Shown here piece by piece: positions 26,391 to 62,501 of a DNA stretch of 64,000 nucleotides (the first letter of the stretch is position 1; every line of letters begins with the position of its first letter). Below the pieces are notes generated by a model that searched no databases, had not been told where the DNA came from, and worked only from the letters and a program-made list of their open reading frames with translations. The position numbers and the translations under genes were made by a program. The stretch is from Lacimicrobium alkaliphilum. Its GTDB lineage: Bacteria > Pseudomonadota > Gammaproteobacteria > Enterobacterales > Alteromonadaceae. The stretch spans positions 2,790,001 through 2,854,000 of the forward strand of contig NZ_CP013650.1 in assembly GCF_001466725.1 (NCBI RefSeq). The letters run 5' to 3'.

Positions 26391-26391
26391 A

Positions 26392-38141: not shown

Positions 38142-39608
38142 TTAGATACGTTCTACTGAATCAAAAATATTTTGCCACTTGTCACTGATCCAGTTCAGGT
38201 CAAAAAGCTTTGCCGCCTCTTTGCGATTGTGCTGCTTCTGGTTTTCAGACAATAACCTGACATCCTGTCCTTCAAGCAGTTCATTGGAGTCTAAAACAAT
38301 CAGATTAAACTTTTCGCTAATATGAGACCACAAGCTTTGATTGGACTTATTCAGATATACCGTTGCCCCCGTGTATAGCAGCGCATAGATGGTTGATAAG
38401 GCGATCTGTGTATGGGTATGCATGATGGCCACATCAATACTACTGAGCCATCTGGCAAATGGTCCCGGAGCCATATACTCAGAGAGCACCTCATTTCTAG
38501 GGAAATGTTGCCTGACCATTGCTGCAACGTTTTTTGCATATGCCCTATCGCCGTATGAAATTGGCAGCACTAACTCAATTTGTTGCTTCTGATCCTTGAG
38601 TGCCTTGAGGACCAGTGTGTGGTTTAGCTCTGCCACGGCACTTTGGCCCACCATAACGCGCCAGATCTCCTTGGGCTGACACTCATGCAAATCGTTTGCG
38701 GGTAACGGATTAGGATAAAAGCCATTGAAGCACCGACCATGAAAACCATATCGCTTTTGTGCGCTTTCTCTATCATACCCCATAAAGGTTACCAGGTTGG
38801 CAAACCCTACTTTACTCTGAACAATCATATCGTCGATAAAACTCCCTTTAGGGGAGATACTGTGGATATCGCGTCCCCAGGCAACCCAGGTTGCGCGCTT
38901 TAGCAGGGCCGGATCCATCAGAAAGGGAAATCTGGCAAGATTAAAATATCCATGTACCATCACATGCTGACTTTGAGCGACTGCTTTAGCGGTCTTTCTG
39001 ACATCAGATAAGAATGCGGGATACCAGTTGCCGTTTTCATAACGTACTTCTGGCGCGTCCATACTAAACCCTTCTTGCATAGGGGTTTCGGGAAAGGTTT
39101 TACGGACTAAAAAATGATGTTTTCTGCGCCTGTCCTTAGTCAAAAGATCTTTAAAGGCAGTGGCAAAAACTCCTTTGGGAACAATGTGCAGGTAGTCATA
39201 GCGGCTTCTGCCGGTTACCAAATAGTAATATTTAAACACTTGGTATAAAGCTTGGTAAGCGTTCAACCGCAATCGCTGTAACAATCGGTTTTCGTGCTTT
39301 TTCAGCAGTTCGCTGCAATGTATGAACGGGATCCCAGTCGACACTAACTGCTGGCTAATTGCTTCAAAGTACTGGCTGGTCACTATGATTAATTCAGGTG
39401 AGAGGATCGGGCATTTAGTTGGTGAGTAAACGGGTATGCCATGAAAGTAATTGCCATGTTTAGTTTTATCATTGTCGATAAAGCCGATGATGTTTAGCCT
39501 GCTCTCAAATGCCTCTATAAATTCAGCACCTAGCTGAGAAGCGCCAAATAATACAATGCGCTTTTCAGATAATTCGCTAAGCCGGTGCTTTTCGTGTTTA
39601 GCCATCAT
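38142..39608 (-). CDS. WecF-like (GT56) 4-acetamido-sugar transferase with N-terminal Rossmann domain
   Basis: Residues 16-95 form a Rossmann domain (RIVLFGASQLG, GFIDNDKTKHG, GIPVYSP). Residues about 205-440 resemble WecF, the TDP-Fuc4NAc transferase of enterobacterial common antigen: MVHGYFNLARFPFL, WVAWGRDIHSIS, VMVGQSAVAELNH, LVLPISYGDRAYAKNV, and IALSTIYALLYTGATVYLNK align with WecF motifs. A dTDP-4-amino-4,6-dideoxyhexose donor would fit the rfbAB-vioA genes on the other operon. It is the last gene of the long minus-strand block; its start overlaps the upstream gene. Confidence 0.75.
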   Translation of the reverse strand: MMAKHEKHRLSELSEKRIVLFGASQLGAEFIEAFESRLNIIGFIDNDKTKHGNYFHGIPVYSPTKCPILSPELIIVTSQYFEAISQQLVSTGIPFIHCSELLKKHENRLLQRLRLNAYQALYQVFKYYYLVTGRSRYDYLHIVPKGVFATAFKDLLTKDRRRKHHFLVRKTFPETPMQEGFSMDAPEVRYENGNWYPAFLSDVRKTAKAVAQSQHVMVHGYFNLARFPFLMDPALLKRATWVAWGRDIHSISPKGSFIDDMIVQSKVGFANLVTFMGYDRESAQKRYGFHGRCFNGFYPNPLPANDLHECQPKEIWRVMVGQSAVAELNHTLVLKALKDQKQQIELVLPISYGDRAYAKNVAAMVRQHFPRNEVLSEYMAPGPFARWLSSIDVAIMHTHTQIALSTIYALLYTGATVYLNKSNQSLWSHISEKFNLIVLDSNELLEGQDVRLLSENQKQHNRKEAAKLFDLNWISDKWQNIFDSVERI

Positions 39609-40116
39609 CTTTCAAGCACCGTGCACAGTCAGAATAAAGTGCCTTGAGATTTTGTGTGTCGGCTCTGCGCGCAAACTCATCCCATACTTCAGCGCTGTCA
39701 GGAAACTCAAAAAGCAATTCCGTTAACAGTGTCTCATCATCTTGAGATAACGCATCAGCCAGCTTAGCCCCGACAATCTCAGACTGGGACAACCGAAAGA
39801 CCAACCCAATCAGCGATGGATAACGTTCGGAAATTATGTCAAAGATTTTTCTTTCAAAAGCAATGCTGGCAATAACTATAAGATCGGGTTTTTCTTCACC
39901 CTCAAGAAAAGAAACAGGATATACCTCTCTGCCATCAACACTCTTTCTTTCATTAATAGAGGAATCTACAATTCCTCGGAGCTCTATGTCAGGAAATTGC
40001 TGCTCAATCAGTGTGGCTAGCTGATCACCAACCTGACCTGCTCCCCATATTACTGCGCTTTTTATATCGGGACGTGATGTCAGGAACCTTGATACTCTCT
40101 GTGTAAGTAGGCTCAT
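39598..40116 (-). CDS. Free-standing Rossmann-domain protein of the glycan island
   Basis: A 172-residue protein. Residues about 17-105 carry AVIWGAGQVGDQLATL, RGIVDSS, REVYPVSFLEG and DLIVIASIAFE, a nucleotide-binding fold like the N-terminal domain of PglD-type acetyltransferases, here without the catalytic domain. The C-terminal part is helical and acidic. The ATG at 40116 overlaps the asparagine-synthase-like stop as ATGA; the longer frame from 40164 is inside that gene. Function unknown. Confidence 0.7.
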   Translation of the reverse strand: MSLLTQRVSRFLTSRPDIKSAVIWGAGQVGDQLATLIEQQFPDIELRGIVDSSINERKSVDGREVYPVSFLEGEEKPDLIVIASIAFERKIFDIISERYPSLIGLVFRLSQSEIVGAKLADALSQDDETLLTELLFEFPDSAEVWDEFARRADTQNLKALYSDCARCLKDDG

Positions 40117-41990
40117 AATAGACCGGTTCCTTTGTCCAGGATCGCCAGATTGATCAATGGCCAAAACATCCCCATCTGCTCAAATTCTTTACTCTCATGG
40201 CAATGATTTACGGCTCTCTGCAATGCCTTGCCATCGAACAGCGAAGAGTCCCTGACGATTGAGTCATTGGCGAAAGAAACGACCCATTCACCTAGTCCCT
40301 GTTTTAGCCACCGATAAAAAGGAGGAGAAAAACCCGACTTATCAGTTCGCTTTCGAATACCCTCAGGGATAAATGGAAAGTGATCTCGCAGCAAAGATTT
40401 AGTTCTTCCTCCTGAAAGCTTTAACTGGCTATCTGCTTTAAATGCAGCCAATACAAAACGATAATCTAAAAAAGGGGAACGGACTTCAACGGAATGGCTC
40501 ATGGATAAGCGATCATAGTTTCTGAGGATATAGGGCAAGGTAAAGTAATGAAAATCCTCATACAGCTTTTGAAACAACATGGTTTCCTGTTTGTAGGTTT
40601 CTGAATTCCGTTCGTTTACAATGTCATTACTGAAATGACTTGTCCCTCGAAGCAAGCTTCTGAGGTATAACTTCTTGCTACCCAGTTTATGATGTAAATC
40701 CTCCGAAGACATGGGAGCCTGTAAAAGACTGCTCCTGACAAAAGCACTGCCAGCTCCCGGGCGCATGTCACCTAATGCTTTTATCAAGGTTGCCATGATT
40801 TCAGGCGAAGCCCGGTTTCTCATCACATCGCCCAGGTATACCGTCAGGTGTCGGTGATAACCTGCTAAAAGTTCATCACCACCGTGCCCCTCCAGCGAGA
40901 CTTTGTAACCATCCTCATGCATGGCCTGGTACACTTTCCATTGACCGACAATGGGGAGGTCATTGACATCCTCTAAAGCAAGACAGCTCTTTTCAACATG
41001 TTCCAATACATCGTCTTCTGAAACACTCACCCGTCTATAATCAAGCTGATGAGTATCAACCACTAATTTCGCCCAGTGATATTCATCCATATCACTATCA
41101 ACGAAGGAGCCGATAAAAGACCTTAGCTGTTTTGCTTCTTTAATACCGGGTAGGGTTGCCAACCTGGACGTCACAGCAGAGGAATCCAACCCCCCGCTCA
41201 ATGCTGTTGCAATTTTAACATCTGTACGTGTTCTGATTTCACAGGCCTGACTAAACAGGTACTGCAAATCTTCCGCTGTTGATGGAAGGTCCTGCAGCTC
41301 TGTCAACTGGTCATAAGTATTCCACCAACGCTTATGTTCCGGCCCTTTCTGAGTGACGATCAAATACTCACCCGGAAGTAACTTATCAACATCTTTGTAT
41401 AACGTCTTTCGTTCAGACTCCACGGCCTCTGGATACAACATCAGAAAACTGGCCTGCTCCGCACAAACCTCCAAGCCTTGAGGGTGGCAACGAAATGCTT
41501 TTTGTTCAGAGGCAAAAGCAAAGTGTTCACCATCATATCGATAATAAACTGGCTTCACGCCAAAACGGTCACGGGCAAGAAATAGCTGTCTTTTACGCTG
41601 GTCCCAAATCGCGAAGGCCCACATACCGTTTAATCTGCTGAGACAATCTATCCCCCAATGTTGATAGGCTCTCAGAAGTACCTCAGTGTCAGAAGTCGTT
41701 CTGAATACATAGCCAAAAGACTGCAATTCATGTCTTAGCTCGGGGTAGTTATAAATTTCTCCATTAAACGTCAGTATTAAACTTTTATCCTCAGAAACAA
41801 ACGGCTGATTAGCCGCTCGTGATGTATCGACAATAGAAAGACGGCAATGACCTAATCCGAGGTGGCGGTGATCTGAAAAATACACGGACTGGGCATCCGG
41901 CCCCCGGTGGCTAAGTGACTGATTAAATCTCTCCAGCACGTTATCAGGGATAGGGGTTTGATACTGAAGAATCCCGCTTATACCACACAT
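40113..41990 (-). CDS. Asparagine synthase-like glutamine amidotransferase
   Basis: A 625-residue AsnB-type enzyme: class II glutaminase starting with catalytic Cys2 in MCGISGIL, then HRGPDAQ and FNGEIYNY, and an AMP-forming synthase domain with the PP-loop SGGLDSSAV (265-273). In polysaccharide loci such enzymes (for example WbpS) convert uronic acid carboxyls to amides, which would suit the GlcNAc3NAcA or GalNAcA sugars predicted here. A housekeeping asparagine synthetase is the alternative, but its place inside the glycan operon argues against that. Confidence 0.88.
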   Translation of the reverse strand: MCGISGILQYQTPIPDNVLERFNQSLSHRGPDAQSVYFSDHRHLGLGHCRLSIVDTSRAANQPFVSEDKSLILTFNGEIYNYPELRHELQSFGYVFRTTSDTEVLLRAYQHWGIDCLSRLNGMWAFAIWDQRKRQLFLARDRFGVKPVYYRYDGEHFAFASEQKAFRCHPQGLEVCAEQASFLMLYPEAVESERKTLYKDVDKLLPGEYLIVTQKGPEHKRWWNTYDQLTELQDLPSTAEDLQYLFSQACEIRTRTDVKIATALSGGLDSSAVTSRLATLPGIKEAKQLRSFIGSFVDSDMDEYHWAKLVVDTHQLDYRRVSVSEDDVLEHVEKSCLALEDVNDLPIVGQWKVYQAMHEDGYKVSLEGHGGDELLAGYHRHLTVYLGDVMRNRASPEIMATLIKALGDMRPGAGSAFVRSSLLQAPMSSEDLHHKLGSKKLYLRSLLRGTSHFSNDIVNERNSETYKQETMLFQKLYEDFHYFTLPYILRNYDRLSMSHSVEVRSPFLDYRFVLAAFKADSQLKLSGGRTKSLLRDHFPFIPEGIRKRTDKSGFSPPFYRWLKQGLGEWVVSFANDSIVRDSSLFDGKALQRAVNHCHESKEFEQMGMFWPLINLAILDKGTGLL

Positions 41991-41993: not shown

Positions 41994-43139
41994 TCAATCG
42001 CTTTTATTATCTAACAGTTCAGGAAAATTCGTCTTGATATTATTCGTCACATTTAATGACACCACGTGCTTTTTGATAGCATCACGATATTGCTGTAATT
42101 TAATTGGAGTTAATTGGCGCACCTGCTCTGCAATCTGCTTTACAGACTCCTGGCCAAAGCTCATTCCAACACCGTATTTATCGGTAAAGTAACGCATATC
42201 TTCAGAAAAGCTGGTGATCACTGGTAGCCCCGCATACAAAAATTCAAAATATTTATTGGGTAAGCAGTACCGGTTCTGGCTATCGTTAACCTCCATTAAG
42301 TAAAGTCCAACATCATACTCACTGCAGGTTTCAATAATTTCATCTGGATGCACTGGAGGGATGATACGCACATTTTTCATACCTTTTATCCGGTGCTTTA
42401 ACTCCTCAAAATACTTATTCCCGGGAGTGGTAACCAACATCATATCCAGCGAATAGCCTTCACCTAATTCAGCCATCAGTTCAATCATTTTTTCCAGACC
42501 GCGGTTTCTAAACGCATTGCCGTGGTGAATTAACCGAACCGGTCGCCCCTCGATAGACCGCTCTTGTGGGGAGATGTAAAGGTCTTCTCTTGGATAGCTC
42601 GGAAACAAGCCTATTGGACAACCAATCAGTGCCTCATAAAGTTTTACAATCGATGGTGAAACCGTTACGCAACGATAGACCTTGGGCATATGCCGCAGGC
42701 AAATATGTCTGGCTAGCTTACCAACAGTTTTTGCCCACGCTTTGTTATCAGAAAACTCCATCGGATAGTATTCTCTGGCATCAAATATCACGCGCGTTTT
42801 ATGAAAATTGCTGAAGTGTGGAAGTAAATACAAGTCATGAACGAAAATGTAATCAAACTGCCCATCGACCACCGTCGGCATGATGAAACGTTTAGCTTCA
42901 ACGTGTGCTGCAATGTGACACCATCCAGACTCTGTCGCAACTCGCCCTAACCACCTTAAAAAAGGCGAACCTGGAGAGCGCCTAAGATAGCCAAAACGCT
43001 GCGGGTCATTATCTTCATCGAGCGCTGGAGGGCACAAATACTGGCAGTCATGGATTTTGCTAAGCGTTAACATTAATCGCCTAGCTCTGGGACACTTCAA
43101 TAGTGGCGTTTTAAAAACAAACAGGATTCGTTTGCTCAT
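41994..43139 (-). CDS. Glycosyltransferase (GT4-like)
   Basis: A GT-B fold transferase of about 381 residues. The C-terminal nucleotide-sugar domain is recognisable: PVRLIHHGNAFRNRGLEKMIE, NVRIIPPVHPDEII, and LPNKYFEFLYAGLPVITS. The N-terminal half shows FDYIFVHDLYLLPHF and RVIFDAREYYP. Donor and acceptor unknown. I use the ATG at 43139, which overlaps the preceding stop (ATGA), rather than 43145. Confidence 0.85.
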   Translation of the reverse strand: MSKRILFVFKTPLLKCPRARRLMLTLSKIHDCQYLCPPALDEDNDPQRFGYLRRSPGSPFLRWLGRVATESGWCHIAAHVEAKRFIMPTVVDGQFDYIFVHDLYLLPHFSNFHKTRVIFDAREYYPMEFSDNKAWAKTVGKLARHICLRHMPKVYRCVTVSPSIVKLYEALIGCPIGLFPSYPREDLYISPQERSIEGRPVRLIHHGNAFRNRGLEKMIELMAELGEGYSLDMMLVTTPGNKYFEELKHRIKGMKNVRIIPPVHPDEIIETCSEYDVGLYLMEVNDSQNRYCLPNKYFEFLYAGLPVITSFSEDMRYFTDKYGVGMSFGQESVKQIAEQVRQLTPIKLQQYRDAIKKHVVSLNVTNNIKTNFPELLDNKSD

Positions 43140-43495
43140 AGCCACGTCTCTAAACTTATGAAGCGCCCTTCAAAGCCCCTATTCCGGCATTGCTGCATAA
43201 TCTCTTCGGCATACGCCTCACTCGCAATAATCAGGAAAGCTGCTGAATCCATGTTTACCACCTCAGATGCTGGTTTGATTGGCTTACCTAAGAGTCGGTG
43301 CTCACCTTCTGGTATCGAAGAATCAAACCATGAGGAAATCCTGATTTGCGCTTCATCAAGACGCTGAACAATGGCCAGTCCGAGGTCTCCGCAGCCAAAC
43401 ACAGCAACCTCCTTAAGGTTCAGGGACATTGCTTCATTAACCAAAATCTTATCTGGTGGGCTGAAAAAACGGAGCACCTTATTCAACCACATCAT
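43136..43495 (-). CDS. Small Rossmann-domain protein of the glycan island
   Basis: A 119-residue protein that is almost only a nucleotide-binding domain: AVFGCGDLGLAIVQRL (about 31-46), SSWFDSSIPEGE, LLGKPIKPAS, AAFLIIASEAYAEEI. It resembles the Rossmann domains at 36148-37272, 38142-39608, 39598-40116 and 44462-45916. No catalytic module is attached. It overlaps both neighbours by short stretches, so it is made from the operon transcript. Function unknown. Confidence 0.7.
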   Translation of the reverse strand: MMWLNKVLRFFSPPDKILVNEAMSLNLKEVAVFGCGDLGLAIVQRLDEAQIRISSWFDSSIPEGEHRLLGKPIKPASEVVNMDSAAFLIIASEAYAEEIMQQCRNRGFEGRFISLETWL

Positions 43496-44465
43496 TTAGT
43501 CCTTTCTCGGAAAGTAATGGGGTAGGAAACAGTTCATACAGACGCGTTTTTACCTCAGGCATCCTTTTAGTCAGAGACTGATATTCATTCAAGCAAAACA
43601 TTTTTCTCTCACCGTGCGCGATCAGATCGAACAAAAAAGCAATTTTTTCCTTAGAACCCTCTCTGCACAGTTGGAAACTGAAATGCACCATTGATCCGGT
43701 ATCCTGGCGCCTCCCAAGCTGATTTTTAACGCAGAAGTGATTAAATAATGACTCCAGGATAAATTGCGACTCATGTCGGAAACGGTGCTGTAGATTATTT
43801 TCAAAAGATTCAGAGAACTGTGTTTCCAACGTCTGAACCAGCGTCTTGTCAAAAGGTAAGAAACCATGGCTTGGTACCAGAATTTCTGAATGGCTATAGT
43901 TCATCATCTTTGCCCCATTGATAATCCCCCTCTGCCAGAGGGTTTCCCCATAAGGACTTTTCATGGCTGTCCAGTCTGCATAAATCACAGGTCGTCCACC
44001 ATCATCAAAGAAGAAATCACGTTGAACAGGGGCTCCGAACATAATGTCGTCATTACCAAGGAGGTAGTACCGGCTCAGTTCCGGAATATGATGAACCCGC
44101 GTGGCCAGAGCTCTGGAGTTAAAGGTGGGTAGGTAATGTGCCTTTCCTCGAAAGAGCTTCTTATGATCAACGATGACAATGCGATCCAGCGCAAGCTTGT
44201 CTTCATCCAGAAACGCTGGCACTTGCTCGTCGGTAACAAGGTGAATTTTCCTATACCAGGGGGAAAACTGCTTGATTGACCTCAGACAAAACCGCAGCTC
44301 ATCATGTTGGACAAAGCGTTTATCATCGGTTGATTGCTCAGCGTTATGGGCAGATTCCAGACTAAAATCAGACAGATATTGAGACCGCTTCTGGCGATGA
44401 GCAGGATCGTTGCCGTCAACCCAAAAGATCACAAAATCAATGTCTGAGGGAGTATTACCAGTCAT
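43479..44465 (-). CDS. Stealth-family sugar-phosphate transferase
   Basis: Stealth proteins transfer hexose-1-phosphate units to make phosphodiester-linked capsule polymers. The 328-residue product has the four conserved regions: CR1 DIDFVIFWVDGNDP (residues 8-21), CR2 HDELRFCLRSIKQFSPWYRKI with HLVTDEQVP (54-83), CR3 around SRYYLLGNDDIMFG (131-144), and CR4 in HRFRHESQFILE. In this island it would add a sugar phosphate to the flagellin glycan or another acceptor; donor unknown. ATGA overlap with the TagF-like gene. Confidence 0.88.
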   Translation of the reverse strand: MTGNTPSDIDFVIFWVDGNDPAHRQKRSQYLSDFSLESAHNAEQSTDDKRFVQHDELRFCLRSIKQFSPWYRKIHLVTDEQVPAFLDEDKLALDRIVIVDHKKLFRGKAHYLPTFNSRALATRVHHIPELSRYYLLGNDDIMFGAPVQRDFFFDDGGRPVIYADWTAMKSPYGETLWQRGIINGAKMMNYSHSEILVPSHGFLPFDKTLVQTLETQFSESFENNLQHRFRHESQFILESLFNHFCVKNQLGRRQDTGSMVHFSFQLCREGSKEKIAFLFDLIAHGERKMFCLNEYQSLTKRMPEVKTRLYELFPTPLLSEKGLNDVVE

Positions 44466-45916
44466 GCTACGGCTCTTATATAAGCAGTAATATCAGGCAG
44501 CGATGGCTGACGACGGATAGCGAACTTTTCAATCAGTGCATCACGTTCATACTTGAAGGCATCTTTTCCCTCTGTCAGTTCACGTAATGTTGCAATCAGC
44601 GCGGTCTCAGTTGTAACCAGCGGCCCGGCAATAAAGTCACTATCTTTAATCATCGGCTCGCCCCGCACATGACGATAGGCTTCTTTATCATATTGGTAAT
44701 AGACAATTGGCTTGTCCAACACCAAAAAGTCGAGTGCAACAGACGAGTAATCTGTAATCAGCACTTCCGCATCAGCTAACCAGGGATAGATATTGCGGGC
44801 ACTGGGAAAAAGAAACAAACGGGTATAGCCGGGAATGGCTTGTAATGTATCAGCATCACCTTTTAACCCCATAGCATCCCTGAACTTTCTGGAAATAAAA
44901 GGATGAAATTTAAAGATCAGTGTTTTGTCATATTGTTGACATAGGCTTTCCAACGCATCGAAGTTCAGGAGGTAGCTGTTGTCACCACTATCTCGATAGG
45001 TAGGCATATAAACCCATATACCCTGGCTATTTTTTGTGAAGGAGTCAAATACCTCTTCGGAAATGGAATTTAACCAATTACGTTGATGTTTTGGCTGTAA
45101 AAGAGCATCGCATCGCGGATAGCCATAATCCAGATACTCCTCAGCCCTGAATATATGTGGAAACCTGTGCTCATTAAACCATCGCGAACTGGATACAAAA
45201 GCGGTGTCACAAATGTTGGGAAAATGCGCGTTACCAGCGAGCGATTTGTAGGGTAATCCATGCCAGAGCTGTACAACAGGTTTATGCAGACGCACCTCTG
45301 AGAAAAGTAAGCTGGTGTATTCGTGATCGATAACAATCACCCTTGCGCGCAGCAGCACCCAATATGCCCGCCAACCCGATTGGATTCTTACAGCAAGATC
45401 ACCATCCATGGCTTGCCCTTTCAGATTTATCCCTAAAAGTTCGGCATCATCAGGGTGCATGCCAGCGTAATAATGCCAGGCCAACAACAGGTTCGTGTCG
45501 ACAAATTCTTCAGCATAAAAAACCGCTTTTTTGGCCGGCAGAATGCGACAAAGCGTGCGAATAGAAAAACGCAGGGCTTGCTCAGCCATGTCTTTGATGA
45601 GGTCAGCCAGTGATAGTCTGAAAGGCGTTAGCTTCTGATTACCACGGTGACAGAGAATGGCCTCTTTTCTGAATCCTTTTTTGACTAAGCCACGGCAGAT
45701 CTCAGCCTGAAAAGGCCCTTCAGCCACGATGACCTGAATATCTCCGTTAGCCTGTTCCGCATGGTTGATAATGTCGCGCCCTTGCTTGAGGTTATCTACC
45801 ATTGCGACAACCTTCACATTGTCTTCACGCAGGTGCTGTGCAAGAGCCCTGCCCGCCGGATTAGCGGGAGCGACATACACCGACTTGCCTGAAAACTGGG
45901 AAAACCGTTCGCTCAT
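44462..45916 (-). CDS. TagF/TagB-like CDP-polyol phosphotransferase with N-terminal Rossmann domain
   Basis: The C-terminal 300 residues match CDP-glycerol glycerophosphotransferases of teichoic acid synthesis: KPVVQLWHGLPYKSL (His219), VYMPTYRDSG, FKFHPF and VLITDYSSVALDFLVLDKP. The first about 90 residues are a Rossmann-type domain (VYVAPANPAGRALAQ, VVAMVDNLKQG), as in other island genes. No CDP-glycerol or CDP-ribitol synthesis gene is in the window, so the donor is unknown or made elsewhere. No membrane helices are seen. Confidence 0.85.
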   Translation of the reverse strand: MSERFSQFSGKSVYVAPANPAGRALAQHLREDNVKVVAMVDNLKQGRDIINHAEQANGDIQVIVAEGPFQAEICRGLVKKGFRKEAILCHRGNQKLTPFRLSLADLIKDMAEQALRFSIRTLCRILPAKKAVFYAEEFVDTNLLLAWHYYAGMHPDDAELLGINLKGQAMDGDLAVRIQSGWRAYWVLLRARVIVIDHEYTSLLFSEVRLHKPVVQLWHGLPYKSLAGNAHFPNICDTAFVSSSRWFNEHRFPHIFRAEEYLDYGYPRCDALLQPKHQRNWLNSISEEVFDSFTKNSQGIWVYMPTYRDSGDNSYLLNFDALESLCQQYDKTLIFKFHPFISRKFRDAMGLKGDADTLQAIPGYTRLFLFPSARNIYPWLADAEVLITDYSSVALDFLVLDKPIVYYQYDKEAYRHVRGEPMIKDSDFIAGPLVTTETALIATLRELTEGKDAFKYERDALIEKFAIRRQPSLPDITAYIRAVA

Positions 45917-45954: not shown

Positions 45955-46680
45955 TTATGCGGTGCTACCAGCATCTACCGTCATTACCGTACCGGTAATG
46001 GCGCCAGCCTGCTCACTAAGTAAATAAACCACCATGGCTGCGGCATCATCTGGTGTAGCCAGTTTTCCTAACGCGCTGCGACGCTCAATCTTCTTCAGAT
46101 TCTCATCGCTCAGATTCTGAGTCATATTAGTTTGCATATACCCGGGCGCAACAGAGTTAACCGTAATACCTGCTTTTCCAACTTCTCTTGCCAATGAGCG
46201 GGAAAATCCCTCTAATCCAGCTTTAGTCGCCGCATACACACTTAACCCATTAAATCCGGTTTGAGCAATAATCGAAGAGATATTCACAATCCGGCCTACC
46301 CGATTCAACAGCATGGACCGCAACAAATACTTACTCATTAGTATCGGCGCCTGCAAATTAAGGTTGAGTAATTCAGTAATCTGACTGTTATGCAGGGTGG
46401 CTAATACTCCATCATGACCAACCGCAGCATTATTAATCAGTGCATAAGGACGGCCGTGTTTCTTTAGCAATGACTGACACAGTGCAGGGATAGCATTAAG
46501 GTCGCTTAAATCAGCACTGGCAAAAGTCAGCTTATCAGACTGCATTTTCAGCAATTCACTTAATGGCTCAGAACAGTGTCGCGACAACGCCACGACTCTA
46601 TAGTCCTGCTCCAGCAAGGCTCTTACAATGGCCAGCCCCAATCCCTGACTCGCACCTGTGACGATAACCACATTACTCAC
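45955..46680 (-). CDS. Short-chain dehydrogenase/reductase (FabG-like)
   Basis: A 241-residue SDR: TGASQGLGLAI (about 8-18), NNAAVGHDG, catalytic Ser in NISSIIAQTG and YAATKAG (YxxxK), closest in feel to 3-oxoacyl-ACP reductases. The longer frame to 46713 lies within the ligase gene; the GTG at 46680 is preceded by AGGAGACAACC, so I use it. With the adjacent ligase and ACP it could reduce an ACP-bound 3-keto acyl group used to acylate a sugar. Confidence 0.85.
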   Translation of the reverse strand: MSNVVIVTGASQGLGLAIVRALLEQDYRVVALSRHCSEPLSELLKMQSDKLTFASADLSDLNAIPALCQSLLKKHGRPYALINNAAVGHDGVLATLHNSQITELLNLNLQAPILMSKYLLRSMLLNRVGRIVNISSIIAQTGFNGLSVYAATKAGLEGFSRSLAREVGKAGITVNSVAPGYMQTNMTQNLSDENLKKIERRSALGKLATPDDAAAMVVYLLSEQAGAITGTVMTVDAGSTA

Positions 46681-48016
46681 TCGGTTGTCTCCTATCGATC
46701 TTGCCTGTCTCATTGGTTTTTATCTGTTTGACGAAATCAATCCGCATCGGAACCTGGTAGCGCGCCAGGCGCTGCATACATTGCAAGATGATTTTCTTTT
46801 TCAATGCTGTCAGCTCAGTGTCGGCTTCTGCCACCACTTCAGCACTGACTAAGCTACCCATCACACTGCTCTTTGATCCGTAGACTCTGGCACTCAAAAC
46901 CCCTTCAATAGACAATATAACCTGCTCTACCTGCTGAGGATGCACTTTATTACCCCCAACATTGATCACACCACCTGCACGCCCCAAAAAGTACACACGC
47001 CCATCAATAATCTCGACCATATCCTCGCTGTCAATGTATCCCTGCGCATCCATGCGATTTTTAACACCTGATTTGGGGAGCTGAAGAGGTTTTATGCATA
47101 AGTGGTGGTGAGCATTTATCTTAAGCTTTACACCGTAATACCCATCTTTGAGCCAGGCTTCAGGAAATCCAGCCTTTCCATCACTCACAGAGAATCCCAC
47201 CCCGGCCTCAGTGGAAGCATATATATGGATGATCCTCGCCTCGCTAAAGCGAGCACGCAGCATATTCAGCAGCCCCTGATCGGCAATTTCACCTCCTAGT
47301 GTCAACTGGCTCAGAGGCAGAGTTTCCAGCTCTCCACTCAGCAATAACTGACGCCACATACTTGGTGTAGCGGAGAGTGCTGTTGTTGTTGCAGCCCTTA
47401 ATAGCTTGATTCTACGGGAAATATCACCATCGCTGGCGTCGACTATAGATGCACCACTTAACAACCCCTGTAGCAACACCTGTAAACCAGCAAAGCGAAA
47501 GGGTTGATATAGCAATCCCCATCTCAAAGGCATTTGCTCAAGGTTCACACGAACAGAGGCAGTGAGACCAGCTAGTTGATGAGCTATCCATTTTGGTTTA
47601 CTGGTGGTGCCTGATGTTGCGATATACCAGTGTGTAACGACGTGCTGTCCCTCAGGCAAGGAAGTGTCCCGTTTTACATCACTCTGTAGTCCAGCCCAAA
47701 ACTGACAATCATCAGGTAACTGTGGAGCATCATCCTCTGGAAGCAAATACAAAGCCGCAGACCAACCATCAAAGGCAAGCAGTAATCTGACAAAATCATT
47801 CAATCCCTGATAGCGGATAGCCACGGTCGCCCCTCGCAAATGAGGCTCCTTAGCGCGAATCAGCTCTGCTTCAGCAATAATCCTGGGCAGGGATATAGTA
47901 TTAAGGTTGGGGTCACTAACCGAATCAACAGGCTTTGAGCTGGCTTCTAACAACTCTCCATTGACGCTATCATCAGCGCTTTCATAAAGCTCCTTGAGTC
48001 TGTGCAGTAGCTGCAT
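46673..48016 (-). CDS. AMP-forming acyl-ACP/CoA ligase (ANL superfamily)
   Basis: A 447-residue adenylating enzyme: P-loop-like YIATSGTTSKPKW (131-143), IYASTEAGVGF, and the C-terminal lysine in TNETGKIDR. Shorter than usual acyl-CoA synthetases (about 500-550), mainly in the N-terminal region. It lies directly after a dedicated ACP gene and before an SDR, suggesting it charges that ACP with an acyl group. Substrate unknown. Confidence 0.85.
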   Translation of the reverse strand: MQLLHRLKELYESADDSVNGELLEASSKPVDSVSDPNLNTISLPRIIAEAELIRAKEPHLRGATVAIRYQGLNDFVRLLLAFDGWSAALYLLPEDDAPQLPDDCQFWAGLQSDVKRDTSLPEGQHVVTHWYIATSGTTSKPKWIAHQLAGLTASVRVNLEQMPLRWGLLYQPFRFAGLQVLLQGLLSGASIVDASDGDISRRIKLLRAATTTALSATPSMWRQLLLSGELETLPLSQLTLGGEIADQGLLNMLRARFSEARIIHIYASTEAGVGFSVSDGKAGFPEAWLKDGYYGVKLKINAHHHLCIKPLQLPKSGVKNRMDAQGYIDSEDMVEIIDGRVYFLGRAGGVINVGGNKVHPQQVEQVILSIEGVLSARVYGSKSSVMGSLVSAEVVAEADTELTALKKKIILQCMQRLARYQVPMRIDFVKQIKTNETGKIDRRQPSE

Positions 48017-48018: not shown

Positions 48019-48279
48019 CTACTCCCTGTTTTTTTCAGAATACTGACGATAAATCGAGACAAACTCACCAAATGTGCTCGGATAAACCGGAATGGCCATT
48101 TGAGTAAAGGGATCAAAACCGAGCTCTTCATCTAACTGGGCAACCAGCATTGCAAAACCGAGAGAATCCAGGCCACTTTGCAACAGAACAGTATCGTCAT
48201 CAATCTCACTGACCAACTGACACTGGCTCAACTCTGCAACCTGCTCCATGGTATGGCGTATTTTCTGTTCAATGTTCAC
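48019..48279 (-). CDS. Acyl carrier protein
   Basis: An 86-residue carrier protein with the phosphopantetheine attachment serine at 39 in SGLDSLGFAML. Acidic and helical. Unlike AcpP it is not near fabF or fabD; it lies between pseH and the acyl-ligase and overlaps pseH by four bases, so it is likely dedicated to glycan acylation. Confidence 0.9.
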   Translation of the reverse strand: MNIEQKIRHTMEQVAELSQCQLVSEIDDDTVLLQSGLDSLGFAMLVAQLDEELGFDPFTQMAIPVYPSTFGEFVSIYRQYSEKNRE

Positions 48280-48875
48280 AATAGCTCCTGTTCAAAATCA
48301 ATGAGTTGGGATGCTTCCCGAATTTGTGCCGGTAATTTTTTTAATATGCTTTGTCGCCGCTGCCGCCAGTCAGTTAATGGGTAACGAAAGCGATGTACCT
48401 CAAACGCTTTTCCTTCGCGCACACCACCATCCCGGCTTTCCAACGACTGATACTCAAACAACCTGTGCAATTTAATCACCGCCTGATTGAAACTCAGTAC
48501 CTCTGCATACAGAGCTTCGGCCTTTGTATAATCTGCGACATAATCCAAAGCCGCCACCTCTAACAGCAATCCACTACCGGGCCAGATATCCGCTTCACCA
48601 AGATAACACCCCCACTCTGGCTCCTCTGTACCCAGACCACTGAAATTAAGCACGCCAATCGGACGGTCGTTTTGGTAAAAAACAAAGAACTGCCTGGTAG
48701 GATCCTGTTTTAAGGATTCAAACCAGCTCAGGTGCTCATGCCAAGGGATAGTTTTATCATTATGCATGTTGATGCGAATATGCGCCTGATTACGCCATTT
48801 CCACACCCTTTCCAGGTGGTGTTCATCAAACACCCTAAAAACTGACTTCGGATACGTTCGGCTCAACTTAACCAC
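48276..48875 (-). CDS. pseH: PseH-like N-acetyltransferase (pseudaminic acid pathway)
   Basis: GNAT-type acetyltransferase that acetylates the 4-amino group of UDP-4-amino-4,6-dideoxy-AltNAc, the third Pse pathway step. VWKWRNQAHIR, HLSWFESLKQDPTRQFFVFYQNDRPIGVLNF and EVLSFNQAVIKLHRLFEYQ match PseH. The frame is open to 48953 within pseG; I use the GTG at 48875 overlapping the pseG stop, where homology begins, but 48896 (GTG) is possible. The C-terminal extension of about 40 residues beyond the GNAT core is unusual. Confidence 0.85.
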   Translation of the reverse strand: MVKLSRTYPKSVFRVFDEHHLERVWKWRNQAHIRINMHNDKTIPWHEHLSWFESLKQDPTRQFFVFYQNDRPIGVLNFSGLGTEEPEWGCYLGEADIWPGSGLLLEVAALDYVADYTKAEALYAEVLSFNQAVIKLHRLFEYQSLESRDGGVREGKAFEVHRFRYPLTDWRQRRQSILKKLPAQIREASQLIDFEQELL

Positions 48876-49920
48876 CTTTAAATCGCTTTCCGTCACTGCC
48901 AAGCATTGCCGACATAGATTCAAAAACTCTGCTACTCCCCATAGTATCGGCAAATTGCCCGGCTTTTTGATGCATGGTGGCCAGTTTGGAGGATTGCGAC
49001 CACAGCATGACGGCGGTTTCAGCGAGCGCTTTGACAGACTCTCCCTGAGTCATATCAAAAACCTCACACCAGCCCTGCTGCTCAGCCTGAGCTGTCGCCA
49101 GCCGCTGATTCTCTGCGACCACTGCCAAAATAGAAGGAGTGCAACACGCAGCAAGCTCAAACTGACTCCCCCCCGCTGCGGATATGGCAAGTCGGGCTCT
49201 GGAAAAACAATCCGCCATTTGCTGATGATTGGGCAAGTGCTGAACGATCAGCCCTGTTCTCTTCAAAAAGTCATCCAACGCCATTCCGTCGCGATACGCT
49301 GCCCCGGTAATCACGCGCACAGACATACTGGCGCTAAGGCTTTCAAGTGCTTGCAGTAAAGAGAGTGTCATGCCTGATGGATCGCTACCACCAAAGCATA
49401 TCACCAGATGGCTTCGCTCAGAAAAGGGCATTGGTTCTGTGATTCGGAACTCATGGCGAAGCACACGATAGGGTTCACCTATGCAGCGTTGCGCCGTGGC
49501 TGCGGTCTGATCGTAATTCAGCAGTGGCGCATGACTGGAACCATTGATCAGTAGGTCTGCGTAAAGCTGTCCTGAGTCATTATTGTCATCAAACAACGCA
49601 AACAATTTGCCCGTATTTTTGATAGCGAACCGATACGCCTGATCAAACTGGTAGCCATCCAACACAATCCAGTCTGCCTGGTCAAATTCGGGGAGTTGCT
49701 GCATCCACTGAATCTCTGCGTCCACTGAACAGTCTGGTACCGGTATAACCTTACCCACCCAGTCATGTCGGCTACGGCAAAAGGCCAGTGAAGACTCACT
49801 GACCAAAAAAGTGACTTTCACCTGGTTGAGATCAAGTTCTTGTGCCAGGGCAAGACAGCGCATCAAATGTCCCAGCCCCATTTCTGAATTACCGTCAGTA
49901 CGAAATATAACTGAATCCAT
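48868..49920 (-). CDS. pseG: UDP-2,4-diacetamido-trideoxy-altropyranose hydrolase PseG
   Basis: Removes UDP from UDP-2,4-diNAc-6-deoxy-AltNAc in pseudaminic acid synthesis. 350 residues; N-terminal FRTDGNSEMGLGHLMRC with the catalytic His18, LVICFGGSDPSGMT and AISAAGGSQFELAACCTPSI in the MurG-like nucleotide domain. Family length is normal. Confidence 0.93.
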   Translation of the reverse strand: MDSVIFRTDGNSEMGLGHLMRCLALAQELDLNQVKVTFLVSESSLAFCRSRHDWVGKVIPVPDCSVDAEIQWMQQLPEFDQADWIVLDGYQFDQAYRFAIKNTGKLFALFDDNNDSGQLYADLLINGSSHAPLLNYDQTAATAQRCIGEPYRVLRHEFRITEPMPFSERSHLVICFGGSDPSGMTLSLLQALESLSASMSVRVITGAAYRDGMALDDFLKRTGLIVQHLPNHQQMADCFSRARLAISAAGGSQFELAACCTPSILAVVAENQRLATAQAEQQGWCEVFDMTQGESVKALAETAVMLWSQSSKLATMHQKAGQFADTMGSSRVFESMSAMLGSDGKRFKGG

Positions 49921-49970: not shown

Positions 49971-51014
49971 TTAGGCAATTACGTCCCAGCTTAGTGGTGT
50001 TCCCTTACTCAAAGCGCATTTGGCAACTTTTCCCTGTACGCCATCCCAATACTTTGGAGCCAAACCAAAAGCCGGGCGTACGATACGTAAGTTTTCCGGT
50101 GAGAAGGGCTCTCCAGGTTGAATATCCCTGCATACGTAGATAGATCTTCTATATTGTCTGGCTTTTTCTTCAGCCTCAGTACCGCCATATCGGACTGCCC
50201 CCAAAGCTTGCCAGGCCCTTCGCGTCTCCGTCACCAAGGCCCTCAGTTCCGCAGGCTCCAGAGAAAACGCAGCATCCACACCTCCTGCGGCCCTATCCAG
50301 TACAAAGTGTTTTTCTATCACCTGAGCGCCTAGCGCAACGGCGGCAACGGCAGCCCCTATTCCGGCAGTATGATCACTCAACCCAACCTGTACCCCAAAG
50401 GTTTCCCGTAAGTTTGGAATAGTGCGCAAATTCGTATTGCCGGGCTCAGCAGGATAGGTACTTGTACACTTAAGCAAGATGATATCCTCACAACCTGCAG
50501 CTTTGGCGGTAGTCACTGCCTCCTCTATTTCAGCCAGTGTGGCCATGCCCGTAGACATGATCAGCGGCTTGCCCTTGCTGGCTGCAGCTTTTATCAGAGG
50601 CAGGTCCGTCAGTTCAAAAGAGGCAATCTTAAAACAGGGCACGTTCAGCCCGGCAAGAAAATCCACGGCCTGTTCGTCAAATGGAGAACTAAATGCTTCC
50701 ATTCCCAGTTCCTTTGCTCTCTCAAACAAGGTCTGATGCCAGTCATAGGGAGTCGCTGCCTGAGCATACAAATCGTGTAACTTTCTGCCTGCCCAGAGGC
50801 TATCTTGCTCTTCAATGACGAATCCCGGTTCACTCACATCCAGCGTCATGCTATCGGCAGTAAAGGTTTGCAGCTTGATGGCATCGGCGCCGGCATCGGC
50901 TGCAGCGTCGATCATTTTCAGCGCCAAATCGAGTTGCTGGTTATGGTTGCCGCTTAATTCAGCAATGATAAAAGGCGGGTGTTCAGGCCCGATCTCTCTG
51001 TCACCGATTTGCAT
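49971..51014 (-). CDS. pseI: Pseudaminic acid synthase PseI (NeuB family)
   Basis: Condenses 2,4-diacetamido-2,4,6-trideoxy-altrose with phosphoenolpyruvate. 347 residues from the ATG at 51014: an N-terminal TIM barrel (FIIAELSGNHNQ, IKLQTFTADSMTLD, SSPFDEQAVDFL, GLSDHTAG, VIEKHFVLDR) and a C-terminal antifreeze-like SAF domain (RRSIYVCRDIQPGE). The GNHNQ form and TADSMTLD are typical of PseI rather than NeuB. The frame is open to 51110 but that lies in the upstream gene. Confidence 0.94.
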   Translation of the reverse strand: MQIGDREIGPEHPPFIIAELSGNHNQQLDLALKMIDAAADAGADAIKLQTFTADSMTLDVSEPGFVIEEQDSLWAGRKLHDLYAQAATPYDWHQTLFERAKELGMEAFSSPFDEQAVDFLAGLNVPCFKIASFELTDLPLIKAAASKGKPLIMSTGMATLAEIEEAVTTAKAAGCEDIILLKCTSTYPAEPGNTNLRTIPNLRETFGVQVGLSDHTAGIGAAVAAVALGAQVIEKHFVLDRAAGGVDAAFSLEPAELRALVTETRRAWQALGAVRYGGTEAEEKARQYRRSIYVCRDIQPGEPFSPENLRIVRPAFGLAPKYWDGVQGKVAKCALSKGTPLSWDVIA

Positions 51015-51579
51015 CTTCAGTCTCTTGTTCGAAAATAGAAACAATACTCTGTGCCAGTTCTTCAGCGGGCATGGGTTCAGGGTTCTCGGGGCTAACAGGA
51101 TCGGTGGCATAGTCCGGCATCAGCATGCGTGGGTCCACCTCACCACAAATCACCAGACTGGGACAATCCACCGTTGCCGCGAGCCATTGCCCGTCCCCCG
51201 GCACAGTCACCAGCAGATCCGACGCCTTCAGCTTCATTAACTGATTGTGCAGGTTATGTGTCGTGTCCAGCGTCCAGGTGTGAAAACCCTGGTCAGCCAG
51301 ACGATGTTGCAGCTCTTCAGCAAAAGGATAGGTCAGTCTTGCCTCCGCCCCCTCACACATCAGTGCAATCACTTTGGTGGATCTAGCCTGGTTTTTCAGG
51401 GCCTTATCTGCTGGCACTTCAATATTCATCTGCATCTGCAGGGCGTCAAAGCCACAGCAACTGCGCAGATAAAATTCCGGATAACCATTATCAGGCAACC
51501 ACTCTCCCTGCCACCATGGACTATGCCAACGGGCCATGGAAAGAAAGGTGCTGCTCATATAATTTTCAGGCTGATTCAC
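51001..51579 (-). CDS. GT9-like protein, C-terminal half (probably split by a frameshift)
   Basis: A 192-residue product starting at a GTG that overlaps the stop of the preceding ORF (GTGA). It resembles the C-terminal, nucleotide-binding half of a heptosyltransferase-like glycosyltransferase (KVIALMCEGAEARLTYPFAEEL, LMKLKASDLLVTVPGDGQWLAA, SLVICGEVDPRML). Insertion of one C at CCC (minus strand; 51587-51589) would fuse it to the upstream ORF through SPEYVNQPENYM. So it is more likely half of one protein than a separate gene. Confidence 0.65.
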   Translation of the reverse strand: MNQPENYMSSTFLSMARWHSPWWQGEWLPDNGYPEFYLRSCCGFDALQMQMNIEVPADKALKNQARSTKVIALMCEGAEARLTYPFAEELQHRLADQGFHTWTLDTTHNLHNQLMKLKASDLLVTVPGDGQWLAATVDCPSLVICGEVDPRMLMPDYATDPVSPENPEPMPAEELAQSIVSIFEQETEDANR

Positions 51580-51998
51580 GTACTCAGGGACAATGTCTGC
51601 TGCTGGAACTGCTCCAGCAGTTCCTGCACCGAGATACTCATGTAGTTGCCAACGACCGGCTCACCGGCATCTTTTAGAAAGCGCGCCAAGAAGCAGGGCA
51701 TAAACCCTGTATCCAAATTAATGATTTGATCATAACCCTCAGAAACAATTTGCTCCGCTAATCCTAAAAAGGTTTCCATCGCCGGAATGATGTTATCGGG
51801 CCACTCCTGCTGCTCCAGACCAAACACCCTGACATCGGGCTGCGCCAGTTTAAGTAGCGTTTTGCCCTGGGCAAAGCTAAGCGCTTCAATGTTAGCCTCG
51901 CTGAGACGCGAACGAAAATAGCGAAGTGCGGGAATGCCGATAGCCGCCACATCACCCAAGGGCTGCATACGAATAAGCAGGACTTTCTCCTGACTCAT
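51576..51998 (-). CDS. GT9-like protein, N-terminal half
   Basis: A 140-residue product from an ATG preceded by AAAGGAGAACTC (51998) and overlapping the pseF stop. VLLIRMQPLGDVAAIGIPALRYFR and GYDQIINLDTGFMPCFLARFL are typical of the N-terminal half of family 9 glycosyltransferases. It stops at TLSLST, and the frame one base over continues into the next ORF. Role in the Pse region unknown; transferring a sugar to or with pseudaminic acid is possible. Confidence 0.65.
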   Translation of the reverse strand: MSQEKVLLIRMQPLGDVAAIGIPALRYFRSRLSEANIEALSFAQGKTLLKLAQPDVRVFGLEQQEWPDNIIPAMETFLGLAEQIVSEGYDQIINLDTGFMPCFLARFLKDAGEPVVGNYMSISVQELLEQFQQQTLSLST

Positions 51999-52705
51999 GA
52001 GTTCTCCTTTAACGCGTGCTGACAAAACGCCCGATATAATAGTTCGGCCCGCTGCCAGTCGTCGGGTGTATCAATATCCTGTACCAGGTAATGAGGCAGC
52101 AGGATCGGAAGACTGTGAGGCGCGAAAACCCGTTTGTTATCCAAAAAGGCCTGGGCTCTGCCCCAATAAAACTGCCCCGCATCATGTAAGGCCGCAGGTA
52201 AATCCTGAGAGCGGTTGGCAATAAACTCGGGAAACATCGGCTCGACACCGCCGTTATCACTTTTTATCAGCGCCCGCTGAACCGGAAAAGCAAACTCGGT
52301 AACAGAAAACGCATAGTGCTTATCAGACTGCTTGCTAAGGGCCTCAAATCCCTCTTGCAGATAGCGCTGCTGTAATAGCGGAGCAGTCGCATATATACAG
52401 CATACCAGCTCAGGATTGATACCCAGCTTACGGCATTCCTGAATGGCATTCACTACCACCGCACTGGTGCCGGTGAAATCATCAGCCAGTTCCTGCGGCC
52501 GCATAAAAGGCACATCGCCTCCCCACTCCCTGGCCACATTCGCGACTTTTTCACTGTCAGTCGACACCACCACCTTTTCAAACAAGCCACTGGCTCTGGC
52601 TGCCTCGATAGAGTAGGCGATCAGAGGCTTACCACAAAAGTGTTTAATGTTTTTATCAGGAATTCGCTTACTGCCACCACGGGCAGGGATAATGGCCAGA
52701 TTCAA
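51995..52705 (-). CDS. pseF: Pseudaminic acid cytidylyltransferase PseF
   Basis: Activates pseudaminic acid to CMP-Pse. 236 residues; nucleotide-binding IIPARGGSKRIPDKNIK (residues 5-21), IAYSIEAARASGLFEKVVVSTD, and QDIDTPDDWQRAELLY. It overlaps pseC by four bases. Confidence 0.94.
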   Translation of the reverse strand: MNLAIIPARGGSKRIPDKNIKHFCGKPLIAYSIEAARASGLFEKVVVSTDSEKVANVAREWGGDVPFMRPQELADDFTGTSAVVVNAIQECRKLGINPELVCCIYATAPLLQQRYLQEGFEALSKQSDKHYAFSVTEFAFPVQRALIKSDNGGVEPMFPEFIANRSQDLPAALHDAGQFYWGRAQAFLDNKRVFAPHSLPILLPHYLVQDIDTPDDWQRAELLYRAFCQHALKENS

Positions 52706-53847
52706 CTCAGACTCTCAATTACTGCATCAATTACCTGTTGTTGGTTATCGGCAGACAGGTCGGGATATAAAGGCAGAGTTAAGGCCTGTTGATAAAACGC
52801 TTCGGCATTGGGAAATTGCCCGGGTTCGAACCCCAGCGCCCGATAGTAAGGCTGCAGGTGAATCGGTATGTAGTGCACATTTACGCCGATGCCAGCTTGC
52901 TGCAATCGCACAAAAATTTCTTTTCTGTCATGCTGCTTCAGGGCAATAGCAAAAACGTGCCAGGCACTGCTTGCGCTTTGCGTCTCAACAGGGAGATCTA
53001 ACGGGAGCTGTCTGAATGCGTCCAGATAACGGCGGGCTTTTTCTGTGCGGGCCTGCACAAAACCACTGAGTTTTGTAATTTGTGACAGTCCCAATGCAGC
53101 ATGCAAGTCGCTGAGCCGGTAATTGTACCCCAGGGCAATTTGCTGATAGTACCAGGGACCATCCGGCTGCCCCAGCATTTGCTGTGGATCACGGGTGATG
53201 CCATGGCTCGCAAATAGCCGAAGCTGGTTTTGCAACTCGGCGTTGTTCGTCAGCACCGCCCCACCCTCTGCACTGGTTATAGATTTGACCGGGTGGAAAC
53301 TCATTACGCAGGCATCGGAGTATTCACAACTGCCCACCGGTTTACCTTGATACATCCCACCCAGCGCATGACTGGCATCTTCGATCAGTGCAATCCCCAG
53401 TGGCGATGTCAGCTCGCGTATGGCCTGCATGTCGCAGCTTAATCCGGCGTAATGGACCACCACGATCACTTTAGGCAAGGTGTTGGTTTTTTTCGCCTGT
53501 TCCAGTTTCTTTGCCAACGCCGTTGTACAGATATTGCGGGTTTGCGGACCGATGTCGACAAAATCAACCTGTGCGCCACAATAACGCGCACAGTTTGCCG
53601 AGGCGACAAAAGATAAGGGAGAGGTCCACACGCTGTCACCAGCACTGACACCCAGTGCCAGACAGGCTATATGCAAAGCCGACGTGCCACTGTTAACGGC
53701 TGCGGCATAACGGGCATTACAATTGTCCGCCAATGCCTGTTCAAACGCCGGCACCTGTTGTCCCTGGGTCAGAAACTGATTTTCCAGTACATCGATAACC
53801 GCCTGGATATCAGCGCTGTCAATATGATGCTTACCATAAGGGATCAC
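52702..53847 (-). CDS. pseC: UDP-4-amino-4,6-dideoxy-AltNAc transaminase PseC
   Basis: PLP enzyme that aminates the 4-keto product of PseB. 381 residues; YGKHHIDSADIQAV near the start is a PseC hallmark, then AAVNSGTSALHIACLAL, EDASHALGG, and the PLP lysine in MSFHPVKSITSAEGG. Overlaps pseB by four bases. Confidence 0.95.
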   Translation of the reverse strand: MIPYGKHHIDSADIQAVIDVLENQFLTQGQQVPAFEQALADNCNARYAAAVNSGTSALHIACLALGVSAGDSVWTSPLSFVASANCARYCGAQVDFVDIGPQTRNICTTALAKKLEQAKKTNTLPKVIVVVHYAGLSCDMQAIRELTSPLGIALIEDASHALGGMYQGKPVGSCEYSDACVMSFHPVKSITSAEGGAVLTNNAELQNQLRLFASHGITRDPQQMLGQPDGPWYYQQIALGYNYRLSDLHAALGLSQITKLSGFVQARTEKARRYLDAFRQLPLDLPVETQSASSAWHVFAIALKQHDRKEIFVRLQQAGIGVNVHYIPIHLQPYYRALGFEPGQFPNAEAFYQQALTLPLYPDLSADNQQQVIDAVIESLS

Positions 53848-54842: not shown

Positions 54843-55062
54843 AAACACGGTCTTCCTGGTTAAGAAAAGGGTAACGAGAAATAACTTGCTCTTTGAGTTG
54901 CAAAGCTTCCTTCTGGTTTAGCGGTAATGCAGCAAAGAGTTTGTTATAGGCAATATCCCGGCCAACATATGCACCTCTGTTGCCAGAGGCGATGATATTC
55001 TCGGCATTGGTTAGCATTCTTTCTGTTACCCCAAGGTATCTTTGAATAAGTAACAATGCCAT
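54832..55062 (-). CDS. Maf C-terminal fragment (frameshifted from the main maf ORF)
   Basis: A 76-residue frame that reads VTERMLTNAENIIASGNRG and AYVGRDIAYNKLFAALPL. It is best seen as the true C-terminus of Maf: the main ORF ends at TLG-stop, and one extra G in GGGG (plus-strand CCCC 55029-55032) would run on in this frame as TLGVTERMLTN. No independent ribosome site supports it as a separate gene. Confidence 0.65.
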   Translation of the reverse strand: MALLLIQRYLGVTERMLTNAENIIASGNRGAYVGRDIAYNKLFAALPLNQKEALQLKEQVISRYPFLNQEDRVYVQ

Positions 55063-59150: not shown

Positions 59151-59159
59151 AACTACTCC

Positions 59160-60629: not shown

Positions 60630-60655
60630 TTTATACCTCTATAAAGCCTTGTGAA

Positions 60656-61078: not shown

Positions 61079-61105
61079 TTTTCACCTCCTGATAAGGAAA
61101 AGCGC

Positions 61106-61131: not shown

Positions 61132-61139
61132 TGGCTGGT

Positions 61140-62487: not shown

Positions 62488-62501
62488 TTTTATTTGCCAT
62501 A

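Follow-up and report, generated by a model that had tools for sequence, protein, structure and literature searches.

In a 64,000-nucleotide stretch of the Lacimicrobium alkaliphilum genome (assembly GCF_001466725.1, contig NZ_CP013650.1, positions 2,790,001 to 2,854,000; hereafter the window), a TagB/TagF-like gene and a Stealth-family gene were located in a flagellin glycosylation island, where their products probably act as cytosolic phosphotransferases decorating a pseudaminic acid (Pse) flagellin glycan. What was obtained by computation is the identity of the genes, their folds, the majority of the active-site residues tested, their conserved placement in flagellin islands and the frequent adjacency of TagD-like genes in relatives; the module in flagellin islands is real and conserved. 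The two genes are:

44462..45916, minus strand: TagB/TagF-like phosphotransferase (PF04464) with a separate N-terminal domain resembling a Rossmann domain, 484 amino acids (aa)
43479..44465, minus strand: Stealth-family sugar-phosphate transferase with Stealth CR1 and CR2, 328 aa

The original prediction had described these genes as adjacent and overlapping; the overlap was measured to be 4 bp, with PF04464 and CR1/CR2 found over their cut-offs. Its description of a Pse locus with flagellin-modifying neighbours was likewise borne out, PseG, PseI, PseC and PseB exceeding NCBIfam cut-offs and Maf and flagellin genes lying on the same strand. The island reads, on the minus strand, from flagellins, FlaG, FliD and FliS through Maf, the pse genes with a GNAT acetyltransferase gene, and the genes for an acyl carrier protein (ACP), an adenosine monophosphate (AMP) ligase and a FabG-like reductase to the TagB-like and Stealth genes. 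The genome is a single contig of 4.38 Mb.

The TagB-like and Stealth proteins

The TagB-like protein matched PF04464 with an E value of 7.6e-39 (134.1 bits, cut-off 22.1) and, among the 7999 candidates sharing most words, was 97% identical to a protein of Lacimicrobium sp. SS2-24. H444 and H584 of TagF align with its H219 and H338, which are invariant across 13 aligned TagB-like sequences; these two TagF histidines are named as catalytic in PMC5974469. Foldseek analysis of the predicted structure (predicted local distance difference test score, pLDDT, 87) gave TarL and TagF as the best PDB matches (8va1, 7.2e-15; 3l7j, 1.2e-14) with query template modelling scores of 0.56-0.58, whereas uridine diphosphate (UDP)-N-acetylglucosamine (GlcNAc) 2-epimerases and GT-B glycosyltransferases were matched more weakly.

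In the Stealth protein, CR2 was detected with an E value of 1.6e-32 (112.3 bits, cut-off 39.4) and CR1 with 1.1e-10 (41.5 bits, cut-off 27.2), the definition of Stealth by CR1-CR4 being taken from Pfam and PMC10668966. The predicted structure (pLDDT 93) was best matched by human GlcNAc-1-phosphotransferase and CpsY, and N322, D324 and R419 of CpsY align with N138, D140 and R230 of the window protein. In CpsY, the exchanges E305A, N322A and D324A lowered activity, and R419K and R419Q left none (PMC10668966). The window protein is predicted to be a UDP-N-acetylhexosamine (HexNAc) phosphotransferase. A midpoint-rooted FastTree phylogeny of the window protein, 97 relatives and distant controls joined the close Stealth set at a common-ancestor node of 39 tips (window, P0121-P0157 and fragment P0159) with a support of 0.64; because the 212-aa fragment P0159 sits inside, the close set is not strictly monophyletic on this tree.

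Flagellin islands and TagD-like genes in relatives

Relatives were counted in a family sample of 395 genomes, drawn from a larger group, at E <=1e-50 for close Stealth and E <=1e-80 for TagB-like proteins; Pse neighbours were called at E 1e-10 plus 45% identity for PseI or 55% identity for PseB, and one row (G720x_T), a 6.7-kb side piece of an already counted genome, was excluded. Close Stealth genes were present in 12 of the 395 genomes, and in all 12, window included, Maf and flagellar genes were on the same stretch and a Maf or Pse gene lay within 10 kb. The TagB-like subfamily was present in 27 of the 395 genomes. Its stretches carried Pse or Maf/flagellar genes in 23 of the 27 at first and in 26 after extension of G432, G644 and G691, the exception (G496) being an 8.4-kb contig with ACP, AMP-ligase and reductase genes.

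A TagD-like gene was found at most 115 bp from TagB in 14 of the 27 genomes, and 11 of these 14 genes exceeded the cut-off of TIGR01518 (glycerol-3-phosphate cytidylyltransferase). Two genomes with Stealth and no TagB-like gene (G172, G674) have TagD at most 40 bp from Stealth, with a LicD-like gene on the other side of TagD (by Pfam for G172 only); a LicD-like gene was present on the Stealth stretch in 7 of the 12 Stealth genomes. In the flagellin island of G172 (L112:15832-19470), Stealth is immediately preceded by LuxE, LuxC, LicD-like and TagD-like genes.

Wider TagB-like relatives were surveyed in the best 80 of 554 loci. Of 11 named gammaproteobacterial loci with a TagB-like identity of at least 38%, 8 have Pse genes within 10 kb (Lacimicrobium alkaliphilum, Alkalimonas, Alteromonas confluentis, Motilimonas, three Rheinheimera and one Shewanella), and the pse loci of several Campylobacterota and of Hydrogenovibrio contain more distant relatives (25-31% identity). 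Five loci of Bacillota (L044, L058, L061, L072, L093) have TagF-like genes (27-28% identity) at most 10 kb from flagellin-like genes, FliS also being near in four and FliD in three of them. These loci suggest that TagF-like enzymes in flagellin islands extend beyond Proteobacteria.

According to the reading we favour, Maf would attach a Pse derivative to flagellin in the cytosol, and glycosyltransferases may extend the attached glycan. The TagB/TagF-like enzyme would move a polyol phosphate (glycerol phosphate being the likeliest) onto the glycan from a donor activated by cytidine diphosphate (CDP), and the Stealth enzyme would transfer HexNAc-1-phosphate from a UDP-sugar. Use of a CDP-polyol donor is predicted indirectly, via the TagD adjacency in relatives. 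The finished flagellin would leave through the flagellar export gate, so that no lipid carrier, flippase or ATP-binding cassette (ABC) exporter would be needed. Maf-dependent flagellin glycosylation reportedly precedes chaperone binding and flagellar export, as the title of one study has it (PMC4065374). Donors, acceptors, order of transfer, number of units and the phosphodiester nature of the linkage are what we infer from the computed features; a phosphodiester-containing glycan assembled on flagellin in the cytosol, as originally predicted, is favoured by the exporter-free flagellin/pse/Maf islands and by TagD adjoining TagB or Stealth in relatives. A more specific version is put forward tentatively, as a serious possibility: a branch of Stealth may have turned to protein glycosylation, placing HexNAc-1-phosphate on a flagellin glycan in the cytosol, and may act with a CDP-glycerol-using TagB-like enzyme to build a short teichoic-acid-like phosphoglycan that exits by the flagellar gate without a lipid carrier. 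Such a branch would parallel, in bacteria, the human GlcNAc-1-phosphotransferase by which lysosomal enzymes are tagged.

It appears very improbable that the TagB-like enzyme instead uses a CDP donor to transfer a phospho-amino acid or some other non-polyol group, as was proposed for CD0244 of Clostridioides difficile, a TagF-like protein needed for the GlcNAc-P-N-methylthreonine glycan of flagellin (PMC10714395). Among the Pfam-scanned ORFs at 36-58 kb, no phosphatase-like or PF00483-type match was present, C. difficile proteins not having been used as queries; a PF00483 gene at 30234-31115 belongs to a separate cluster. The TagD-like genes adjoining TagB in relatives point to glycerol phosphate.

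Export and the weighing of the evidence

The original prediction that the window lacks an exporter agrees with a hydropathy scan of non-overlapping open reading frames (ORFs) of at least 80 aa. Beyond 16.2 kb none has more than one hydrophobic stretch, and those with at least six, all at 7.2-16.1 kb, encode CcmF, a CcmC-like protein, CcmB and a POT-family transporter; since these multi-stretch ORFs belong to cytochrome c maturation or are the POT transporter, no exporter is present in the window. In the remaining genome, which the original prediction had proposed to search for tagD-like genes and capsule exporters, one TagD-like gene was found (4.21 Mb), the Wza family was matched at three places and Wzy_C once, and no KpsC/S-family match was obtained.

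The Wza and Wzy_C matches would suit a function in which the two genes make a phosphate-linked lipopolysaccharide (LPS), capsule or exopolysaccharide, the exporter being encoded elsewhere and the proximity to flagellin incidental. TagF-like and Stealth families are indeed familiar mainly from capsules and teichoic acids, and other Stealth genes of the order adjoin ABC-2 or Wzx-like exporters. We nevertheless consider this function quite unlikely in view of the flagellin/Maf setting of close Stealth and TagB-like genes in 12/12 and 26/27 genomes and of the missing KpsC/S match. Furthermore, an ORF of at least 150 aa with at least four hydrophobic spans was absent from 11 of 11 fetched close-Stealth stretches; in further TagB stretches, an ORF with at least four spans occurred in 2 of 23, each having four.

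As controls, 12 Stealth genes outside the close clade were used, Stealth matches at E <=1e-20 having been found in 14 genomes of a 394-genome sample of the order. None of these 12 distant-Stealth stretches has Pse, Maf or flagellar matches, and 11 of them contain an ORF with at least four hydrophobic spans, the twelfth being 8.2 kb long; the difference is tempered by the shorter length of the control stretches (8-20 kb; most Stealth stretches are about 40 kb long). In each of ten controls, one ORF was scanned (the L124 ORF was left out), giving eight ABC2_membrane matches and one Polysacc_synt_3 match over the cut-off and one Polysacc_synt match under it. After this exporter comparison, capsule or LPS use was judged less likely.

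Several observations speak against cytosolic phosphotransfer to the flagellin glycan. The TagB-like protein reached 47.6-65.2 bits where the NCBIfam equivalog cut-offs for TarF, TarB and TarL are 500-1000, and it is therefore filed as TagF/TagB-like only. In the Stealth protein, CR3 fell slightly under its cut-off (E 5.7e-05, 23.4 against 24.2 bits) and CR4 was undetected by the Pfam scan; the Pfam CR4 model is also missing from the precomputed domains of 94 of the 97 Stealth relatives. E305 of CpsY aligns with A121, and this position is A, T, V or L in 12 close-clade alignment rows and E in 5 of 8 more distant rows. Both genes occur together in 5 of the 12 Stealth genomes (G000, G426, G720, G740, G662), in G662 on different contigs; the idea of a travelling pair was dropped, since only these five genomes have both genes. 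Among the 11 named gammaproteobacterial TagB-like loci, three have no Pse gene within 10 kb, namely L017 and L021, which are short stretches, and L018 (Aliidiomarina).

Also against this reading, no TagD-like gene is present in the window, and the only one of the genome, at 4.21 Mb, scored 130-131 bits, under the TIGR01518 cut-off of 165.4. The match nevertheless disproves the notion of a genome lacking TagD-like genes altogether; should this organism use CDP-glycerol as the donor, it must come from the 4.21-Mb gene. In favour of the reading, TIGR01518 matches were found in 27 of 27 genomes with TagB and in 25 of 40 without (Fisher p 1.6e-4), the latter, made up of seven Stealth-only genomes, of which six had a match, and 33 taken from the top of earlier listings, of which 19 had one, being neither random nor independent; in G693 and G713 the match was weak (95-100 bits). 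The TagD-like gene at 4.21 Mb stands with a second, distant TagF-like gene adjoining coaD (L007:8750-10170, genome 4.209 Mb), and our guess is that this pair serves a glycerol phosphate group on the LPS core.

An alternative is that the TagB-like and Stealth folds are those of ordinary glycosyltransferases, or of enzymes with an unusual donor, acting on a real flagellin glycan without phosphodiester. The weaker structural resemblance of the TagB-like model to 2-epimerases and GT-B enzymes, the unmet equivalog cut-offs, the altered E305 position in the flagellar Stealth clade and the lack of a TagD gene beside TagB in the window genome would all fit. We regard it as unlikely, as both TagF catalytic histidines and the donor-site N, D and R of Stealth are retained, and TagD-like genes adjoin TagB in 14/27 family genomes, 11/14 over the equivalog cut-off.

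Island genes and described systems

Downstream of Stealth lie, in this order, a small ORF, genes for a group-1-like glycosyltransferase and an asparagine-synthase-like protein, a second small ORF and the gene of a WecF-like protein; the genes of the island mostly overlap or are separated by narrow gaps. The features other than the two main genes, all on the minus strand, are:

24443..25243, minus strand: flagellin gene, far side of the glycan genes
38142..39608, minus strand: WecF-like glycosyltransferase (under the cut-off) with a weakly PglD_N-like N-terminus
39598..40164, minus strand: small ORF of Rossmann-like look, no Pfam match over the cut-off
40113..41990, minus strand: asparagine-synthase-like amidotransferase
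41994..43145, minus strand: group-1-like glycosyltransferase, weak, under Pfam cut-offs
43136..43495, minus strand: small ORF of Rossmann-type look, no Pfam match over the cut-off
45955..46713, minus strand: FabG-like short-chain reductase
46673..48016, minus strand: AMP-forming ligase
48019..48279, minus strand: acyl-carrier-like protein (PP-binding)
48276..48953, minus strand: GNAT acetyltransferase, probable PseH
48868..49920, minus strand: PseG, TIGR03590 over the cut-off
49971..51110, minus strand: PseI, TIGR03586 over the cut-off
51995..52705, minus strand: PseF-like cytidylyltransferase
52702..53847, minus strand: PseC, over the NCBIfam cut-off
53844..54848, minus strand: PseB, over the NCBIfam cut-off
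55026..58085, minus strand: Maf flagellin glycosyltransferase
58719..63660, minus strand: FliS, FliD, FlaG and two flagellin genes

With the flagellin gene at 24443-25243 beyond their far side, the glycan genes are bracketed by flagellins. The true start of PseI is probably further in, because the profile match begins at residue 45. Two ORFs at 51001-52025 (149 and 192 aa) are matched in the relatives L014, L112 and G426 (L151:6488-7513) by a single intact ORF of 328-341 aa; the window copy is divided between two frames, by a broken gene or a sequence error, and resembles a GT9-type transferase by eye, with no Pfam match. PglD_N/Rossmann-like domains or look-alikes recur at 36148, 38142, 39598, 43136 and in the TagB-like N-terminus, the best of them under Pfam cut-offs. 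The products of the ACP, ligase and reductase genes probably supply the glycan with an acyl group; a liposugar component was suggested for islands with genes of this type (PMC4875605).

On the plus strand between the flagellin genes, 25449-35820 encodes sugar aminotransferases, a UDP-GlcNAc 2-epimerase, a nucleoside diphosphate (NDP)-sugar dehydratase, a nucleotidyltransferase, WbqC-like and TauD-like proteins and two sulfotransferase-family proteins. Judging by the latter, flagellin glycans of this organism may also be sulfated. A sulfotransferase match near the Stealth gene of G172 was weak and under the cut-off.

Two elements appear to be new, namely the flagellin-linked Stealth clade and the recurrent TagB-TagD or LicD-TagD-Stealth neighbourhoods in Alteromonadaceae. 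No paper linking Stealth to flagellin was seen in a limited literature search that covered few subscription papers, and PMC7874193, PMC4875605 and PMC6993521 do not mention Stealth in their main texts. Phosphate on flagellin glycans is known by mass spectrometry in a few bacteria, and few of the enzymes are known; from the islands come candidate enzymes, CDP-glycerol as the predicted donor, and the environmental genera Lacimicrobium, Alteromonas and Rheinheimera. If Stealth does act on flagellin, flagellar glycosylation would be tied to a family of capsule enzymes and to the tagging enzyme of human lysosomal proteins.

The original prediction's remark that such a glycan could be matched to no described system does not hold, as precedents exist in C. 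difficile type A, in phosphorylated Aeromonas glycans and in TagB/TagD of flag-2 systems (PMC10714395, PMC7874193, PMC6993521). In enterobacterial flag-2 variable regions, TagB was reported in 65 strains and TagD in 235, and teichoic-acid-like glycopolymers in the flagellin glycan were proposed (PMC6993521). Variable region 1 resembles the window in having a TagB-family gene within a flagellar locus; flag-2, however, is a secondary flagellar system and has TagD in the locus, which the window lacks.

The phosphodiester glycan on C. difficile type A flagellin cannot be formed without TagF-like CD0244, and a similar glycan is described for Pseudomonas aeruginosa PAO1 (PMC10714395). The cluster CD0240-CD0244 shares with the window a TagF-like gene in a flagellar locus, the phosphodiester on flagellin being established there and predicted here. 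Its five genes serve a GlcNAc core with phospho-N-methylthreonine and, as described, include neither pseudaminic acid nor Maf nor Stealth functions.

Aeromonas islands contain pse, ACP, reductase and AMP-synthetase genes together with variable transferases, phosphotransferases among them, and a Pse-linked heptasaccharide with extra phosphate is described (PMC7874193). The group II flagellar glycosylation island has, like the window, pse genes with ACP, FabG-like/3-oxoacyl-ACP reductase and AMP ligase genes. Its set also includes luxE/luxC, for which no Pfam match was found in the window among the selected ORFs at 36-58 kb; of the other 11 close-Stealth stretches, 6 do contain LuxE/LuxC. In one Geobacillus strain, tagD lies in the island and was read as phospholipid-like (PMC5109656).

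Gram-negative TagF-like capsule polymerases, which transfer glycerol phosphate or hexose phosphate, share the TagF-like domain and two conserved histidines with the window protein (PMC5974469). They are long, multidomain proteins of group 2 capsule loci, whereas in the window protein, of 484 aa, a single transferase domain follows a short N-terminal one. With CpsY and GNPTAB, the window Stealth protein shares the fold, CR1-CR2 and the donor-site N/D/R, while E305 of CpsY is not kept; known bacterial Stealth members are tied to capsules or exopolysaccharides, and GNPTAB acts on protein-bound glycans in animals.

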